A DNA stretch of 64,000 nt from Candidatus Gastranaerophilales bacterium (GTDB lineage Bacteria > Cyanobacteriota > Vampirovibrionia > Gastranaerophilales > Gastranaerophilaceae), in assembly GCA_944325515.1 (NCBI GenBank), contig CALVAO010000001.1:124001-188000 (forward strand), read 5' to 3'. Below the pieces are notes generated by a model, which searched no databases, was not told where the DNA came from, and saw only the letters and a program-made list of their open reading frames with translations. Shown here in pieces: positions 9,021-59,333 of the stretch; position 1 is the stretch's first letter, and each line of letters opens with the position of its first letter. A program made the position numbers and the translations under genes.

Positions 9021-9812
9021 TTGGTAAAAAGTGAGAAACAAACTTATGAATTAGTTGCAGAGTGGCTTGAAGAATACCACTCTTCCAATAATAAATATAA
9101 GAAAGCAAAGGCAAAAGCACTTATTGTTACCAGTATGCTTCCGATTATAAAAAAGATTGCAAGAACAATCGCAAGACGTTCTTACGACCCGATTGAAGAT
9201 CTTGTGCAGGCTGGTTCTATCGGGCTTCTAAAGGCGATTGACAGTTTCTCAAAGGATGTAAATGATAATTTTAAAATTTATGCCGGTTATTTAATCATTG
9301 GAGAAATGAAACATTATCTTAGAGATAAACTTAATACCATCCGTGTACCGCGGCATATTCAAGAACTCACATATCGTATTAACAGCTTTACCAAAACTTT
9401 GACATTAGATGAATTAAACGAATTGACAAATGATGTTGTTGCTGATGCATTAAAAGTTTCTCCTAAAGATGTCGATTTTGTTATGCAAACAGATCGGAGA
9501 AGCACAACCTTATCACTGGATGAAATATATGGCAATGACTCTGACAATTTAAGTTATGAGGAAGTTTTAACAGGCAAAAACTATAAAGAGATGCGTGATA
9601 TAGAAGATGCCAAAATAATACTCAAAGAAGTTATAGAACGTCTGCCGGAAGACAGTAAAGAACTTGTTGAACTATATTATTATAAAGATCTTAATCAGAA
9701 AGAAATTTCAGAACATACCGGACTGACTCCTATGCAGGTTTCAAGACGCTTGAAAAAGGCATTCAGCTTACTTTATAAAATGATTGCCGATACGAGTGCG
9801 GGAGTTTTTTGA
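9021..9812 (+). CDS. RNA polymerase sigma factor of the SigB/SigF/SigG type
   Basis: 263-residue group 3 sigma factor. Region 2 contains YDPIEDLVQAGSIGLLKAID and FKIYAGYLIIGEMKHYLRD; region 3 begins IRVPRHIQELTYRI; region 4 ends with LNQKEISEHTGLTPMQVSRRLKKA. No FliA-specific features were recognised. It uses a TTG start after CTGGAGC. The prepilin peptidase start overlaps its stop, which suggests control of surface structures, as SigF does for pili in cyanobacteria (family knowledge; the link here is inference). No anti-sigma gene is adjacent; a STAS-like protein lies at 45741. Confidence 0.88.
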   Translation: MVKSEKQTYELVAEWLEEYHSSNNKYKKAKAKALIVTSMLPIIKKIARTIARRSYDPIEDLVQAGSIGLLKAIDSFSKDVNDNFKIYAGYLIIGEMKHYLRDKLNTIRVPRHIQELTYRINSFTKTLTLDELNELTNDVVADALKVSPKDVDFVMQTDRRSTTLSLDEIYGNDSDNLSYEEVLTGKNYKEMRDIEDAKIILKEVIERLPEDSKELVELYYYKDLNQKEISEHTGLTPMQVSRRLKKAFSLLYKMIADTSAGVF

Positions 9813-20420: not shown

Positions 20421-20454
20421 GTATATATAAAGTATATATTAATTATAAAATTGC
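20421..20454 (-). promoter_or_regulatory. Promoter-like block, GCAATT-N14-TACTTTATATATAC
   Basis: On the minus strand GCAATT (20454-20449) is followed after 14 bp by TACTTTATATATAC, 40 nt before the start at 20381. It is one of the best-matching members of the window-wide set. Confidence 0.55.
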
Positions 20455-24959: not shown

Positions 24960-25104
24960 TTTTTATTTTTTCCATTAATCTTGCAACTCTTTCTCTAAAC
25001 ATAGGGTCAACTGGGATTGAAGTATAACCGTCAATTCTTGCTGCTTCTTCCTGTTCTTGAAAACTTTTTTCCAGCATAGCCAATTTTCTTAATGCAATAT
25101 TCAT
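24952..25104 (-). CDS. Small 50-residue protein with strong ribosome site
   Basis: A short frame beginning MNIALRKLAMLEKSFQEQEE and ending LMEKIKTI, mostly charged helix. Support comes from AGGAGG 8 nt before ATG and a GCAATT-type block at the usual distance upstream. Its end overlaps the ABC exporter stop by 8 bp, tail to tail. Function unknown. Confidence 0.6.
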   Translation of the reverse strand: MNIALRKLAMLEKSFQEQEEAARIDGYTSIPVDPMFRERVARLMEKIKTI

Positions 25105-25151
25105 GATAACCTCCTAAATTCCTTATCTATCACCTATTTTTCAATCTTACA

Positions 25152-25184
25152 TATATATAAAGTCATTTTTTTTTCTAAAATTGA
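25152..25184 (-). promoter_or_regulatory. Promoter-like block, TCAATT-N14-GACTTTATATATA
   Basis: On the minus strand TCAATT (25184-25179) is followed after 14 bp by GACTTTATATATAT, about 48 nt before the 50-residue gene. Confidence 0.5.
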
Positions 25185-25225
25185 CTTTATGTTAAGAAAT
25201 ATTACAGAATTTAGCTTTAAAAATT

Positions 25226-31739: not shown

Positions 31740-31773
31740 ATATATATAAAGTATTTTATTTATAAAAAATTGC
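31740..31773 (-). promoter_or_regulatory. Promoter-like block, GCAATT-N14-TACTTTATATATA
   Basis: On the minus strand GCAATT (31773-31768) is followed after 14 bp by TACTTTATATATATAC. It matches the 20421 and 59301 copies almost exactly. Confidence 0.55.
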
Positions 31774-37237: not shown

Positions 37238-40200
37238 ATGAATAGAAAAAGATTAATTTCTGCACTTTTGCTTTGTAGTATGGTCGTTCTGTCTTCAAAA
37301 GCTGCAGATGTGAGTATTGTAGAGCAAGTTATAAAAGATCACACAGGTGCTGGAACTGGTGCTGGAGTTGCGGTAAATGCGGCTGGCGATACTCTAACTA
37401 TTACAAATTCTACTTTTACGAACAATTCCGGCGGATTTAGCGGTGGTGTTTATAATTCTGGAAATTTAATAATAACAGATGGAAATGCTGATACACATAC
37501 GACTTTTGAGGGTAATCATAATTCAGAGGGATGGGGTGGCGGCGGTGCTATCTACAGTTATGCATCCGGTTCCAAAGTAGATATAGGGGATTATACATCT
37601 TTTGTCAATAACCATAGTAATAATAAAAATGGTGGTGATTCCGGCGGGGCTGTATATGTAGGTGATGCAACACTTAATATTGGTAACAATGTAAACTTTT
37701 CTGGCAATACTGCAACATCAGGACGTATAGAAAATGAATGGGGTATTGTATCGTATGGCGGAAAGGGCGGTGCTATATATGCTCAGAATAGTGATGTTGT
37801 AATAGAAGATCATCTCACTGTAGATGGCAATCAGTCTATTTATTCAGGTGGTGGTATCGGTATTTATAACGACAAGGATGGTCATTCTACAAAAATTGGA
37901 GAATATGCAGAATTCACCAATAATAAATCTCTTGAGGAAGCGGGTGGTGCAATAAGTAATACTGGCGGATCTCTGGAAATAGGAAACAATGCAACTTTTC
38001 AAGGAAATTCCGCTGCAACAAACGGCGGTGCGATTTATAATACCGGAAATCTTACACTAAATGGCGGAACTTTTACGAGAAATTCTGCGACAAACGGCGG
38101 GGCTATATATAATGCTGGTAATGCCAGTTTAACTGGTGTAAAATTTGATGCAAAAACTGAAACTGCTTCAAATAGTATTTATAATGCAGGAACTGTTACT
38201 ACAGCCGGAGAAAATTCTTTCGGCAGTGATATCCATACAACTAACAGCTGGACTTTTGACGGAACAAATGATGTTCTTGCAACATCAAATATTACCGGAA
38301 GTGGCGGGATTATTAATGAAGGCACAACAAATCTTGCAGGTGATGCATCCGGATATACCGGTACTTACACACAAACAGAAGAAGATGCTGTAACCACTGT
38401 AACCGGAACTTTCTACGGAGGCGAATCAACAATCAGCGGTGGTACTCTTAACTGGAATACAACGAGTAATCCCGATACTGGTTCTTTAAAAGTTTCCGGT
38501 GAGAATACCAATTTAAATATCGGTACAGATAGTACTGCAACAACACAAGCAATTGGCGATCTTGTTTTAGGAACGGATAGTTCCATAAGTGCAGAAGTTA
38601 ATACCATTATAAACAGCGGTTCCTCTTTGACGTTAAATGGAGGAGATGCTGTATTAAACTCTGATGATACTTGGGCAGGAACTATTAACTTATCAAATGC
38701 TGATAGTACTTTGACAGTCGAAGGTCTGAATTCTTATGGTAAGATTATTGCTACAAGTGGTACTCTGGATATATCCGGAGATTTTACTCTTGCAGAAGGA
38801 AGTTCTATTGCAAAAGAAGTTGTAACCCAAATTGATGACGGTGCTAATTATACAATAGTAGCCGGAAGTGAATACACCTTAGATGATAATGATAATTGGC
38901 TGGGAAGCGTCACTATAGCCGGAGGCACGCTTAATGTAGACAGCAGAGATCCTAATACAGGAAATGGTGCTTTATATACAGATGATACGAACGGCGGTAA
39001 TCTCAATATTATAAATAACGGGAATTTAGATATTACAAGCGGAAGCAAGGTTGCAGAAGCTATAGTTACAAATATTGCAACAGGTTCTTCTTTAACTGTT
39101 GAAGGCGGAGATGTAACACTCAACACCGGCGACACTTGGAATGGTACAGTTAATCTTGAGTCTGGTAAGCTTACAGTTAATGGTGTAACAAATGGTGCTA
39201 TTAATGCAACCGGCGGTACTTTGGACTTAGTAAACCAAAACTTCAATCTCGCAACAGGAAGCCAAATTACAGGTGATGTTACAACAAGTATTGATTCAAC
39301 GTCAGTTCTAAATGTAAATGGCGGTAGTGCAACACTTAATAGCGGTGATGATTGGGATGGAGGTTTGACTCTAAATGGAGGCTCTTTAAGTGTTGATGGA
39401 AGTGTTCAAGATACTACAACAAGTTTTATACAAGCAAATACTGGAACTCTTAATATTACGGGCGGAACCGTAACTGTAGGAACTAACAATAATGGCATAA
39501 GCAGTGCTATTCAAAATGAGGTTGCATTAAATGTTTCAAATGGTGCAAATATAGATATAACAAAAGGCGGTGTAGTTGGAGTAGATGACAACGATACATT
39601 AGGCGGTACAACAACACTAAACGGCGGTACGCTTAATTACGGAGTGACAGATCCGCAGAATGCAACTAATATAACTGCTAATACAGGTTATCTTAACTTG
39701 CTTGAAAATTCTGTACTGGAAATTCAAGACCCCAGTAACATAAAAAATGAAGTTGTTGTTGATATCCAAAGGGGTGCGACACTTGAAACTAATGCGAATA
39801 CAGTTTTTAACCTCAACGGCGGAAATGCTGATCCTTCTCAAAACGATAAGTGGAGCGGGTTAATCCGAAACTGGGGAGGCACTGTTAATGCAACAAACAT
39901 GGTAAATGACAGTACATCTGCTCTTCAACAATATGGCGGAACTACAAATATTGATTCAAATTCTAATATTATACTTGATAATGTCATGAGTGAAGTTACA
40001 AGCGGTGTTGTCAATGTAAAAAACAATTCTACGCTTTCTGCTATAGATGCTTCAATTCTGCAGGGCGGGGATTTGAATGTAGACAGTACTTCAAAGTTTG
40101 TTTCTTTTGATAACGGGTTCAACATGACAAACTTGAACCACTCCGGATCATTAATTGGACTAAATAATGCAATAGAAGATTATACGTTAACTTCTAGTAT

Positions 40201-41536
40201 GAATATCGGAACCACAGGCGACAATCAAGGCGATTTTACTCTTGATGTCTACGGCAGAAGCAACGGAGAAGGATATAATGATGCGGACCGTTTCTTTGCG
40301 GATGTTATCCGTAACGCATCTGACTCTGAGTCCGCAACAATTAATATTTCGGACTGGAATCTCGGAGGAGATATATTCGGATGGGATGCGCCGATTGATA
40401 AGCATATTAATCTCGGACGAATTTTTAACTACAATACATTAGAAGGCAACGTAAACTTTACCGAAACTGATAAAGAAATCTTTACGCCTATCGGATGGTA
40501 CAGGCTGAATAATACCGGCGGACTCGGCGGAAATTATACAATGGATTTAACAAGATTCAATCCGCAGGTATACAGAGGACAGGTCACAACACTTGCTCAA
40601 TGGATGAACCAGCTGGCTATTGATGATATGTTATTCAATCACTCAATGCTCCTTCCAAGCTTTAAAGAAGAAGACGGAGGTACTGCTTATACGGGTATGA
40701 TGGCAAACAGATACGCCGCTACAATGCCTCAATACGCACCATATCAATATTCGCGTAAAAACGGCGGGCTGTGGTGCAAAATGTACGGTACTTTTGAAAC
40801 TCTGCAGATGAGTCAAGGGCTAAATAACGTTGGCAACAATGCTTACGGTACTTTAATCGGTGCAGACTTCGGACTAAAAGAACTTAAGCACGGCTGGAAA
40901 TTTATGCCGACAGCTTATATCGGTTATAACGGTGCTCACCAGTACTATTCCGGTTTAGGCGCTTACCAGAACGGCGGACAGGCTGGTTTCTTAGGAACAT
41001 GGTATAAAAATAACTTCATAATCGGCGGTTTAATCTATGGCGGTGTTTATCAGAACAGCTTAGATATCGCAGGTCATACTGATAATACATTTAACTATTT
41101 TGCAGGTGCTGCAACCAAACTTGCTTATAACTGGAGATTCCACAGAGATTGGGTATTACAGCCTAACTTATTCCTAGCTTATAACTTCTTCGGTCAGCAA
41201 AACTGGCATTCTGATTTCGGTCAGATGGGTATGATGTCCGGATTATTAAACGGTATTAACCTTGCTCCGGGGTTAAACTTAATCTGGGAAAAAGAAACTT
41301 TCAGTATATATGCAACTTTACAATATATGTATAACTTGAACGGTGCTGTCGGAGGTCGTGCAGGTAATGTAGATTTACCACACCTATATATGGATAGAGG
41401 ATATATACAGTACGGTATCGGCTTTACAAAACGCTTTACAGACCGCTTCTCCGGATACTTCCAGACAGTATTCAGAAATGTAGGAAGAACCGGTGTCGGA
41501 TTCCAGCTCGGGTTTAACTTCCTGCTCGGCAAGTAA
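37238..41536 (+). CDS. Autotransporter adhesin with Pmp-like beta-helix passenger
   Basis: 1432 residues. A signal peptide covers about 1-22 (RLISALLLCSMVVLSSKA). The passenger, roughly 30-1130, is beta-helical with repeated NNGGAIYN, GNLTLNGG, TFTNNS and GDTWNGTVNL units, like chlamydial Pmp and other polymorphic autotransporters. The C-terminal 290 residues (from about LWCKMYGTFETLQ) form a beta-barrel domain with alternating aromatic strands ending FNFLLGK. It should be a type V-secreted, surface-exposed protein. GGAG precedes the ATG; a terminator follows. Confidence 0.88.
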   Translation: MNRKRLISALLLCSMVVLSSKAADVSIVEQVIKDHTGAGTGAGVAVNAAGDTLTITNSTFTNNSGGFSGGVYNSGNLIITDGNADTHTTFEGNHNSEGWGGGGAIYSYASGSKVDIGDYTSFVNNHSNNKNGGDSGGAVYVGDATLNIGNNVNFSGNTATSGRIENEWGIVSYGGKGGAIYAQNSDVVIEDHLTVDGNQSIYSGGGIGIYNDKDGHSTKIGEYAEFTNNKSLEEAGGAISNTGGSLEIGNNATFQGNSAATNGGAIYNTGNLTLNGGTFTRNSATNGGAIYNAGNASLTGVKFDAKTETASNSIYNAGTVTTAGENSFGSDIHTTNSWTFDGTNDVLATSNITGSGGIINEGTTNLAGDASGYTGTYTQTEEDAVTTVTGTFYGGESTISGGTLNWNTTSNPDTGSLKVSGENTNLNIGTDSTATTQAIGDLVLGTDSSISAEVNTIINSGSSLTLNGGDAVLNSDDTWAGTINLSNADSTLTVEGLNSYGKIIATSGTLDISGDFTLAEGSSIAKEVVTQIDDGANYTIVAGSEYTLDDNDNWLGSVTIAGGTLNVDSRDPNTGNGALYTDDTNGGNLNIINNGNLDITSGSKVAEAIVTNIATGSSLTVEGGDVTLNTGDTWNGTVNLESGKLTVNGVTNGAINATGGTLDLVNQNFNLATGSQITGDVTTSIDSTSVLNVNGGSATLNSGDDWDGGLTLNGGSLSVDGSVQDTTTSFIQANTGTLNITGGTVTVGTNNNGISSAIQNEVALNVSNGANIDITKGGVVGVDDNDTLGGTTTLNGGTLNYGVTDPQNATNITANTGYLNLLENSVLEIQDPSNIKNEVVVDIQRGATLETNANTVFNLNGGNADPSQNDKWSGLIRNWGGTVNATNMVNDSTSALQQYGGTTNIDSNSNIILDNVMSEVTSGVVNVKNNSTLSAIDASILQGGDLNVDSTSKFVSFDNGFNMTNLNHSGSLIGLNNAIEDYTLTSSMNIGTTGDNQGDFTLDVYGRSNGEGYNDADRFFADVIRNASDSESATINISDWNLGGDIFGWDAPIDKHINLGRIFNYNTLEGNVNFTETDKEIFTPIGWYRLNNTGGLGGNYTMDLTRFNPQVYRGQVTTLAQWMNQLAIDDMLFNHSMLLPSFKEEDGGTAYTGMMANRYAATMPQYAPYQYSRKNGGLWCKMYGTFETLQMSQGLNNVGNNAYGTLIGADFGLKELKHGWKFMPTAYIGYNGAHQYYSGLGAYQNGGQAGFLGTWYKNNFIIGGLIYGGVYQNSLDIAGHTDNTFNYFAGAATKLAYNWRFHRDWVLQPNLFLAYNFFGQQNWHSDFGQMGMMSGLLNGINLAPGLNLIWEKETFSIYATLQYMYNLNGAVGGRAGNVDLPHLYMDRGYIQYGIGFTKRFTDRFSGYFQTVFRNVGRTGVGFQLGFNFLLGK

Positions 41537-42921: not shown

Positions 42922-43010
42922 TCATGGCGATTATCACAAACATTTAGATTTTTTGTAATATATCCACCTCTTATTACATGTTAAGTTTTGTAACAAAATT
43001 TATAGATTAT

Positions 43011-43045
43011 GAAATTTTATAAATTGTATATACTTTATATACATG
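43011..43045 (+). promoter_or_regulatory. Promoter-like block, GAAATT-N14-TACTTTATATACATG
   Basis: GAAATT (43011-43016), 14 bp, then TACTTTATATACATG. It has the spacing and second block of the window-wide family, and lies just before the G-poor transcript candidate. TGTATATA-CTT-TATATACA is also a perfect palindrome here. Confidence 0.5.
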
Positions 43046-43049
43046 TAAA

Positions 43050-43178
43050 ACAAATGACAAACATTAAATAACACGAAACACATAACACAACCTTTCATAC
43101 AACCTACACACTAACCTTCTACACATGAGGAATTATTAAAAAGATTCCAAGCCTTTCTAAACAGAAAGGTTTTTTTTT
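43050..43178 (+). ncRNA. Candidate small RNA, about 130 nt, almost free of G
   Basis: Between 43046 and 43125 the plus strand has only two or three G residues and is rich in ACA, CAC and AAC, so it should be unstructured. A classical terminator, CCTTTCT-AAAC-AGAAAGG plus nine T (43152-43178), ends it, and a family-type promoter block begins it. The only reading frames are under ten codons and lack a ribosome site. This is inference from promoter, terminator and composition. Confidence 0.5.
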
Positions 43179-43257: not shown

Positions 43258-44097
43258 ATGAGCTATAAAATATTATCAAAAAAAGAGCTTTGTCCTAATC
43301 AGTATGAAATAACTGTAGAAGCTCCATATATTGTAAGAAACGCAAAAGCTGGACAGTTCATTATATTTAGGGTGGAAGAAAACGGTGAGCGGGTTCCCTT
43401 AACTATTGCAGATGCTGACAAGGTAACAGGAACTTTAACCCTTGTATTTATGGCAGCCGGCTATACAACCAAGAAACTTGCAGAGCTTAATGCCGGTGAC
43501 GAGCTGGTTGACATTGTAGGTCCTCTCGGGCAGCCAACACATATAAAATATTATGGCACGGTTGTCTGTCTTGCCGGAGGATATGGCGCAGCTCCCTGCT
43601 ATTTGATAGCAAAAGCATTTAAAGAAGCAGGTAACAAAGTGTACATGGTCATGGGTGCAAGAAATAAGGATTTAATATTCTGGCAGGATAAAATGAAAAC
43701 AGCCTGTGATGAATTATTTATTACAACGGATGATGGTTCCTTAGGGCAGAAGGGTTTTGTAACCCAGGTTTTAGATGAAATTATTAACCGTGAAAAAGTT
43801 GATTATGCAATTGCAGTCGGTCCAATGCCTATGATGAGAGCAGTTGCTGATATGACAAGAGATAAAGGTATCTATACAGAAGCAAGTATGAATCCGATTA
43901 TGGTGGACGGTACCGGTATGTGTGGAGCTTGCCGCCTAACCGTCGGTGGAGTTACAAAATTTGCCTGTGTAGATGGTCCGGATTTTAACGCTCATGAAGT
44001 AGATTTTGATGAGGTTATAAATCGTACAAAAATATACAAAGACCAGGAACGTAAACGCAGCGAAGACTGCAATTTATTGAAAATGACAAACAAATAG
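43258..44097 (+). CDS. Ferredoxin-NADP reductase-like FAD/NAD protein (NfnA/SudB type)
   Basis: 279 residues of the sulfide/dihydroorotate dehydrogenase-like FAD/NAD-binding family. VPLTIADAD is the FAD site, CLAGGYGAAPCYLIAKA the NAD site, and DGTGMCGACRLTVGGVTKFACVDGPDF the C-terminal [2Fe-2S] site split across Cys pairs. In bifurcating NfnAB the GltD-like partner usually follows; here it does not. GAGGAG precedes the ATG. Confidence 0.82.
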   Translation: MSYKILSKKELCPNQYEITVEAPYIVRNAKAGQFIIFRVEENGERVPLTIADADKVTGTLTLVFMAAGYTTKKLAELNAGDELVDIVGPLGQPTHIKYYGTVVCLAGGYGAAPCYLIAKAFKEAGNKVYMVMGARNKDLIFWQDKMKTACDELFITTDDGSLGQKGFVTQVLDEIINREKVDYAIAVGPMPMMRAVADMTRDKGIYTEASMNPIMVDGTGMCGACRLTVGGVTKFACVDGPDFNAHEVDFDEVINRTKIYKDQERKRSEDCNLLKMTNK

Positions 44098-59300: not shown

Positions 59301-59333
59301 TGTATATAAAGTATTTAACGCGAAAATAATTGC
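59301..59333 (-). promoter_or_regulatory. Promoter-like block, GCAATT-N14-TACTTTATATACA
   Basis: On the minus strand GCAATT (59333-59328) is followed after 14 bp by TACTTTATATACA, about 30 nt before the 58852-59271 gene. Confidence 0.55.

Follow-up and report, generated by a model that had tools for sequence, protein, structure and literature searches.

A conserved small RNA with a G-free core as a candidate antisense regulator of co-regulated genes in Gastranaerophilales

The window analyzed here is a 64,000-nt stretch of DNA from a Candidatus Gastranaerophilales bacterium, and positions 43046-43178 of its plus strand hold a candidate small RNA (sRNA) gene of about 130 nt, whose 5' end was placed from the promoter and whose 3' end from the T tract. 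The gene lies downstream of a tRNA-Ser gene and 80 nt upstream of a pyrK-like gene on the same strand (43258-44097). Further upstream, 37238-41536 of the plus strand is occupied by a repetitive ORF of 1432 aa that begins like a signal peptide and by eye resembles an autotransporter. All elements of the sRNA locus are on the plus strand. The predicted promoter (43011-43041) is of an alternative-sigma-like type, with GAAATT and ATACTTTATATA separated by 13 nt, and is preceded at 42983-42998 by a box, AAGTTTTGTAACAAAA, that may serve as an activator or UP-type site. Three 12-nt units (AACCTTTCATAC, AACCTACACACT and AACCTTCTACAC) make up a putative unpaired pairing core at 43089-43124, within which AACCTAC is found at 43101-43107 and CTAACCTT at 43111-43118. 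The core is followed by hairpin 1 (43129-43148), where GGAATT pairs with GATTCC in the fold and in the copies described below, and by the hairpin and T tract of an intrinsic terminator (43149-43178), recognized from the fold and from the retention of the hairpin across copies.

The original prediction was of a G-depleted plus-strand stretch of about 80 nt, and letter counts agree, with 3 G, 23 C, 40 A and 16 T in the 82 nt from 43043 to 43124; in the sRNA segment, G amounts to 3.5% and C to about 30%. Low G content is not unique in the window, where equally G-poor 80-nt stretches start at 2406 and 25080 (regions 2406-2495 and 25080-25190), but the C-minus-G excess of the locus is the plus-strand maximum when 60- and 80-nt windows are used. 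The predicted fold is more stable than those of shuffled sequences (z -3.41, with 1 of 200 shuffles equally stable). This stability comes from the two 3' hairpins, and the G-poor part is essentially unpaired, matching the single-stranded state originally proposed. The terminator had been described as a perfect hairpin plus T residues, which is slightly too strong because one of the 10 pairs in the stem (43149-43172) is a G-T pair; the stem itself, its 4-nt loop and the T tract are as described. At gathering scores, Rfam yields just the two tRNAs in the window and no match at the sRNA locus, and it yields none in 12 loci from relatives or the same genome that hold sRNA or target regions. Assignment to a known Rfam family was rejected after a permissive scan returned only sub-threshold matches, the best being Phe_leader with 26.4 bits against a threshold of 55.

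The promoter places the sRNA within a larger regulon. Searching the genome with AATT-N9-17-ATACTTTATATA gave 30 exact sites as opposed to none for the reversed pattern, and one of these is the sRNA site (43013-43041), so that the promoter block claimed originally is real. The spacing is 13 nt at 28 sites and 12 nt at 2, GC or GA directly precedes AATT at 23 of the 30, and 14 have a TTTTGTAA-like box no more than 45 nt upstream. Such fixed spacing suggests a dedicated sigma factor. Twelve sigma region-4 matches, including FliA/WhiG-like and SigF-like ones, were found in the genome, and none of them could be assigned to the promoter; a SigF/SigB-like gene at 9021-9812 (plus strand) in the window is one candidate. 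Most of the promoter sites are followed within about 50 nt by the start of an ORF, often for a small protein, and Pfam gave no match over the cut-off for those regulon proteins that were scanned. Three sites precede RNA-like units, namely the sRNA at 43046-43178, a second copy of it on contig C3 and a diverged C-rich unit on contig C6. The latter (C6:12272-12400; L010/L192) is C-rich and G-poor, ends in a hairpin and T tract, and is possibly a second sRNA family. Within the window, the exact promoter also occurs on the minus strand at 20424-20452, 31743-31771 and 59303-59331, with ORFs of 303, 62 (ribbon-helix-helix-like by eye) and 139 aa, respectively, behind these sites.

The organism is probably flagellated, judging from flagellin and flagellar export matches. 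Two FlhA-like export-gate proteins are encoded in the genome (C22:4298-11472 and C10:9473-11563); the C22 gene adjoins FlhB/FliR/FliQ/FliP-like genes, and the C10 protein scores under both the FlhA and the SctV cut-offs. Type III secretion was considered as a theme of the regulon and dropped because the C22 export genes fit flagellar models best and flagellins are present.

Besides the C3 copy, a search of the 2.1-Mb genome returned places that match the upstream block alone. Among 57 sampled genomes (34 from the same genus and 23 from outside it), G003 was the only one of the same-genus 34 without the full sRNA, which was present in the other 33, usually in two copies each, and the matches listed by the same sequence search for the other 23 were to the promoter block alone. 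All 59 genus loci counted as copies hold the core string. Alignment of 56 of them, three cut by contig ends being left out, revealed a 32-nt unpaired core (AACCTTTCATACAACCTACACACTAACCTTCT) that is invariant in every copy and preceded by a variable leader. Of the 56 genus copies whose upstream sequence was long enough to judge, 55 keep the promoter block, as do 38 of 41 copies found in other genera. Of 99 3' ends searched by a strict scan, 75 gave a terminator stem followed by a T tract, with 36 different stems among them, and most of the 24 remaining ends show by eye a stem with a mismatch or bulge followed by a T tract; the letters of the stem thus vary between copies, and the hairpin and T tract are kept. 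The conservation of promoter and terminator, on which the original prediction was to be checked, is therefore seen on both counts. Hairpin 1 was paired in 100% of cells across 42 copies, with only 2 cells changed on both sides, which amounts to little covariation.

A covariance model extended the family to 210 of 286 genomes of the order and 30 of 50 genera, all of the matches listed being from one family, and with laxer settings the sRNA was found in 14 of 15 chosen genomes. Most other genera retain the GAGGAAT hairpin and CACACTAACCTT; in the half of the core that lies upstream, CTACCTACTACACAC replaces AACCTACACAC, and, g1 and g31 apart, most genera do not keep the array of 12-nt units. Genus g30 has a more diverged version, encountered on the opposite strand of a match to the target pattern described below. 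One genome of another genus (G067) carries two tandem copies about 260 nt apart (L313:326-436 and 590-700). Conserved across the family, furnished with a promoter and a terminator of its own and built around an invariant core that is predicted to be single-stranded, 43046-43178 almost certainly encodes a real sRNA.

Its position next to tRNA-Ser is incidental, since an origin as a tRNA tail or read-through terminator is ruled out by the promoter of its own and the copies elsewhere. The downstream neighbor raises the question of a cis-acting leader or attenuator, as in pyrimidine operons, because the terminator-ended RNA is found upstream of pyrK on the same strand not only here but in 24 of 80 pyrK loci. 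However, in three of these loci (L085, L105 and L111) the RNA is on the opposite strand, in 53 none was found upstream, and the C3 copy lies far from pyrK in the same genome. The opposite orientation together with the second copy excludes a pyrK leader for practical purposes, and we give this reading a negligible probability. Equally negligible is the prospect that the transcript is a short mRNA for a small peptide. The core can be read without a stop in one frame for about 15 codons, but this frame has no start codon after an in-frame TAA, insertions of 1 or 2 nt, some inside the core and some ahead of it, set the copies apart and break the frames, and the core is invariant at every position, with no variation at synonymous sites. 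The features of the locus are instead those of a trans-encoded sRNA, a non-coding unit with its own promoter and terminator and independent of its neighbors.

Candidate targets are found within the same regulon. AGGTTA occurs in only one of the upstream regions of the 30 promoter sites, that of a gene for a 171-aa protein on contig C13. Just before its ATG, this gene carries AAGGTTAG and GTTAGGTAGGTT, which are perfect complements of CTAACCTT and AACCTAC in the sRNA. The protein, which gave no Pfam match and no convincing PDB match, is present itself or as a weak homolog in 36 of 38 same-genus genomes, and GTTAGGTAGG adjoins the start codon in all 30 genus loci of the gene, with one to several copies of AAGGTTA upstream. 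Homologs outside the genus share about 20-30% protein identity with it, and their UTRs still contain repeats of AGGTTA, usually together with TAGGTAGGAG or a variant of it ahead of the ATG. Altogether, AGGTTA was found in 73 of 77 upstream regions of homologs of the gene, a count that covers every UTR read, including one (L238) that is cut 37 nt upstream. The four UTRs without it are both copies in G150 and those in G173 and G141. In G150 the sRNA is present, yet the UTR element is missing from both target homologs. The G173 UTR has CGGTTAGTAA, which by reading contains a 9-nt complement of the sRNA of that genome, and in G141 no sRNA was found either. Of 69 target UTRs counted, 67 contain, one to three times, a perfect complement of 8-9 nt to the most conserved unpaired sRNA segment.

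A pattern combining the two elements, AAGGTTAG-N0-30-AGGTAGG, matched in 52 of 98 genomes of the order, and a control pattern matched in 4. It was found in 46 of 71 same-family genomes with a covariance-model match versus 2 of 22 genomes of other families, a comparison that is confounded by relatedness. The 30 loci returned comprise 25 with an ORF 2-10 nt downstream, 4 with the g30 sRNA on the opposite strand and 1 with neither. Of the ORF-leading loci, 15 belong to the 171-aa gene class and 9 to a second class, represented in the same genome as the sRNA by a 209-aa protein and in other genera by proteins of 258-296 aa that contain a hydrophobic, glycine-rich segment. A comparable promoter-like block precedes the sites of this second class, whose last letters lie 2-7 nt upstream of the ATG. 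At least two gene classes under the same promoter type thus have the complement of the core in their 5'UTR. The one remaining ORF-leading locus (L355, genome G047) is from family f7, outside the family of the sRNA matches; there, a GCAATT block precedes a 94-aa ORF whose start is marked by AAGGTTAG..AGGTAGG, a hint that the system may extend beyond the family.

To quantify the complementarity, UTRs were compared with shuffled versions of themselves. The sRNA segments tested included 25 of the 40 stretches from other genera (L295-L334), 13 of 25 loci (L385-L409) and the four g30 loci. The UTRs included 34 from the genus, found via the string GTTAGGTAGG with none of those tried failing, and 13 of 20 late stretches (L335-L354), L339, L340, L345, L350, L351, L353 and L354 being left out; L345 and L354 are without the UTR element. 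The fraction of UTR G positions inside perfect complements of at least 7 nt was 0.525 versus 0.120 for shuffled UTRs, a level of 5% or lower being reached in 38 of 56 genomes. Duplex energy gave a mean z of -1.58, and 26 of 56 genomes beat 95% of shuffles. Covariation between sRNA and UTR seemed likely by eye and failed two permutation tests, in which matched pairs were compared with permuted ones at genus level; it was absent both in G coverage (p 0.46 and 0.68) and in duplex energy (p 0.56), and we do not claim it. Since own-genus pairing is no better than cross-genus pairing, the case for pairing rests on the two conserved complementary elements and not on covariation. An RNAduplex ranking of 243 upstream regions showed no enrichment over shuffled cores, and the 171-aa target was not the top match. 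The composition of the target UTRs (C 5%, G 24%) mirrors that of the sRNA, which is weak evidence because co-regulated UTRs are C-poor in general (C 6.8% in 27 of them).

Several known systems offer comparisons. The C-rich-motif sRNAs of Firmicutes (RsaE/RoxS and IsrR type) pair through unpaired C-rich segments with Shine-Dalgarno regions, whereas the motif of the present RNA is of ACCU type with no long C runs and belongs to a different lineage. Protein-sequestering RNAs of the CsrB/RsmY type carry many GGA motifs in hairpin loops; the present RNA has a single GGA, at the base of hairpin 1. Membership among Hfq-dependent sRNAs is not indicated, as the PF17209 profile had no match in the host genome, although this profile matched only 5 of 14 controls, Synechococcus not among them, and a diverged cyanobacterial-type Hfq could be missed. 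The closest analogue, by comparison of features, is Yfr1. This cyanobacterial sRNA is 54-69 nt long, presents ACUCCUCACAC unpaired between two stem-loops, is mostly found at a fixed locus and inhibits translation at the 5'UTR (PMC2190773, PMC6778093). Both RNAs have a 3' terminator hairpin and an unpaired motif that is ultraconserved, and both are spread through a lineage of the same phylum (PMC2190773, PMC6778093); the likeness in mode of action is proposed on the side of the present sRNA. However, the latter is about 130 nt long, has the motif CACACUAACCUUC and no conserved 5' stem-loop, and usually occurs in two copies at varied loci behind a regulon promoter. By reading, ACUCCUCACAC is absent from the aligned copies, the consensus fold has no 5' hairpin, and no Rfam match was obtained. 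Because size, motif, 5' stem-loop and locus differ, we did not file the RNA as Yfr1. A parallel in wiring is provided by CJnc170 (FliA-dependent) and CJnc230 (RpoN-dependent) of Campylobacter, which are sRNAs in alternative-sigma regulons that act on genes of the same system (PMC11187230). The present sRNA, of unrelated sequence and from an unrelated organism, is likewise predicted to be wired into an alternative-sigma-like regulon and is proposed to act on its genes.

We propose that this RNA of about 130 nt acts in trans as an antisense sRNA and occludes the ribosome-binding sites of co-regulated genes, a reading to which we assign a probability of roughly 0.6 from the sequence evidence. This evidence consists of a promoter common to the roughly 30 sites of the regulon, three AACCU units within an unpaired core free of G, a hairpin, a terminator, conservation across a bacterial family and conserved complementarity to mRNA translation starts, the last with no detectable sRNA-target covariation. 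Activation of the regulon would turn on transcription of the sRNA from its own promoter. The segments CUAACCUU and AACCUAC (or CUACCUA) of the sRNA would pair with the AAGGUUAG repeats of the UTR and with the GUAGGUU or UAGGUAG element, which overlaps the ribosome-binding site, and pairing would thereby block translation of the co-expressed genes. As the same type of promoter stands before the sRNA and before its targets, this circuit would form an incoherent feed-forward loop. With the core nearly G-free and the target UTRs C-poor, each partner could stay single-stranded and pair with the other, and given that no Hfq is detectable with PF17209, pairing would work without classical Hfq. That the sRNA pairs with these target UTRs is probable. 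Repression is the default outcome, as pairing would mask the ribosome-binding site immediately ahead of the start codon, and we put it at even odds.

The most serious competitor, which we regard as unlikely, is that this conserved sRNA has other targets or another partner, with the AAGGTTA of the UTRs used for some other purpose, for example as an unusual ribosome-binding site or a site for a protein, and matching the sRNA by coincidence. The two tests without covariation, the bulk duplex ranking that does not discriminate and the G150 exception all speak for it. Coincidence fits poorly, however, with a perfect complement of the best-conserved unpaired segment in nearly all target UTRs counted, with its recurrence in two unrelated gene classes behind the same promoter type, and with the confinement of the element to a single upstream region among the promoter sites of the genome. 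The original prediction had left a choice between a base-pairing and a protein-titrating RNA, and of the two the former fits better because co-regulated genes carry at their start codons the complement of the core (AAGGTTAG, GTAGGTT) and not the same motif; we found no support for titration. Three AACCU units spaced 12 nt apart in an unpaired, invariant core could in principle bind several copies of an RNA-binding protein, but, apart from g1 and g31, most genera lack the array while keeping CACACTAACCTT, and the complements in the partner mRNAs are not what titration would lead one to expect, leaving it improbable.

Regulation in the non-photosynthetic gut cyanobacteria of the Gastranaerophilales has been little explored, and in open-access full text we found no work on sRNAs of this order and no report of the present RNA. 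The antisense reading of the sRNA can be extended, tentatively and with less confidence than the reading itself, to a family-wide network without classical Hfq. In such a network, one alternative-sigma-like promoter would drive both a G-free sRNA and C-poor targets bearing several tandem complements, and mutual titration, through repression and sponging, might set the dose of lineage-specific proteins. The target elements are specific enough for a heterologous reporter test that does not require culturing the organism. The sRNA family is present in most of a bacterial family, and its promoter motif delimits a regulon of about 30 sites. Its action would apparently proceed without classical Hfq in a sister lineage of the cyanobacteria, where Yfr1 works similarly.
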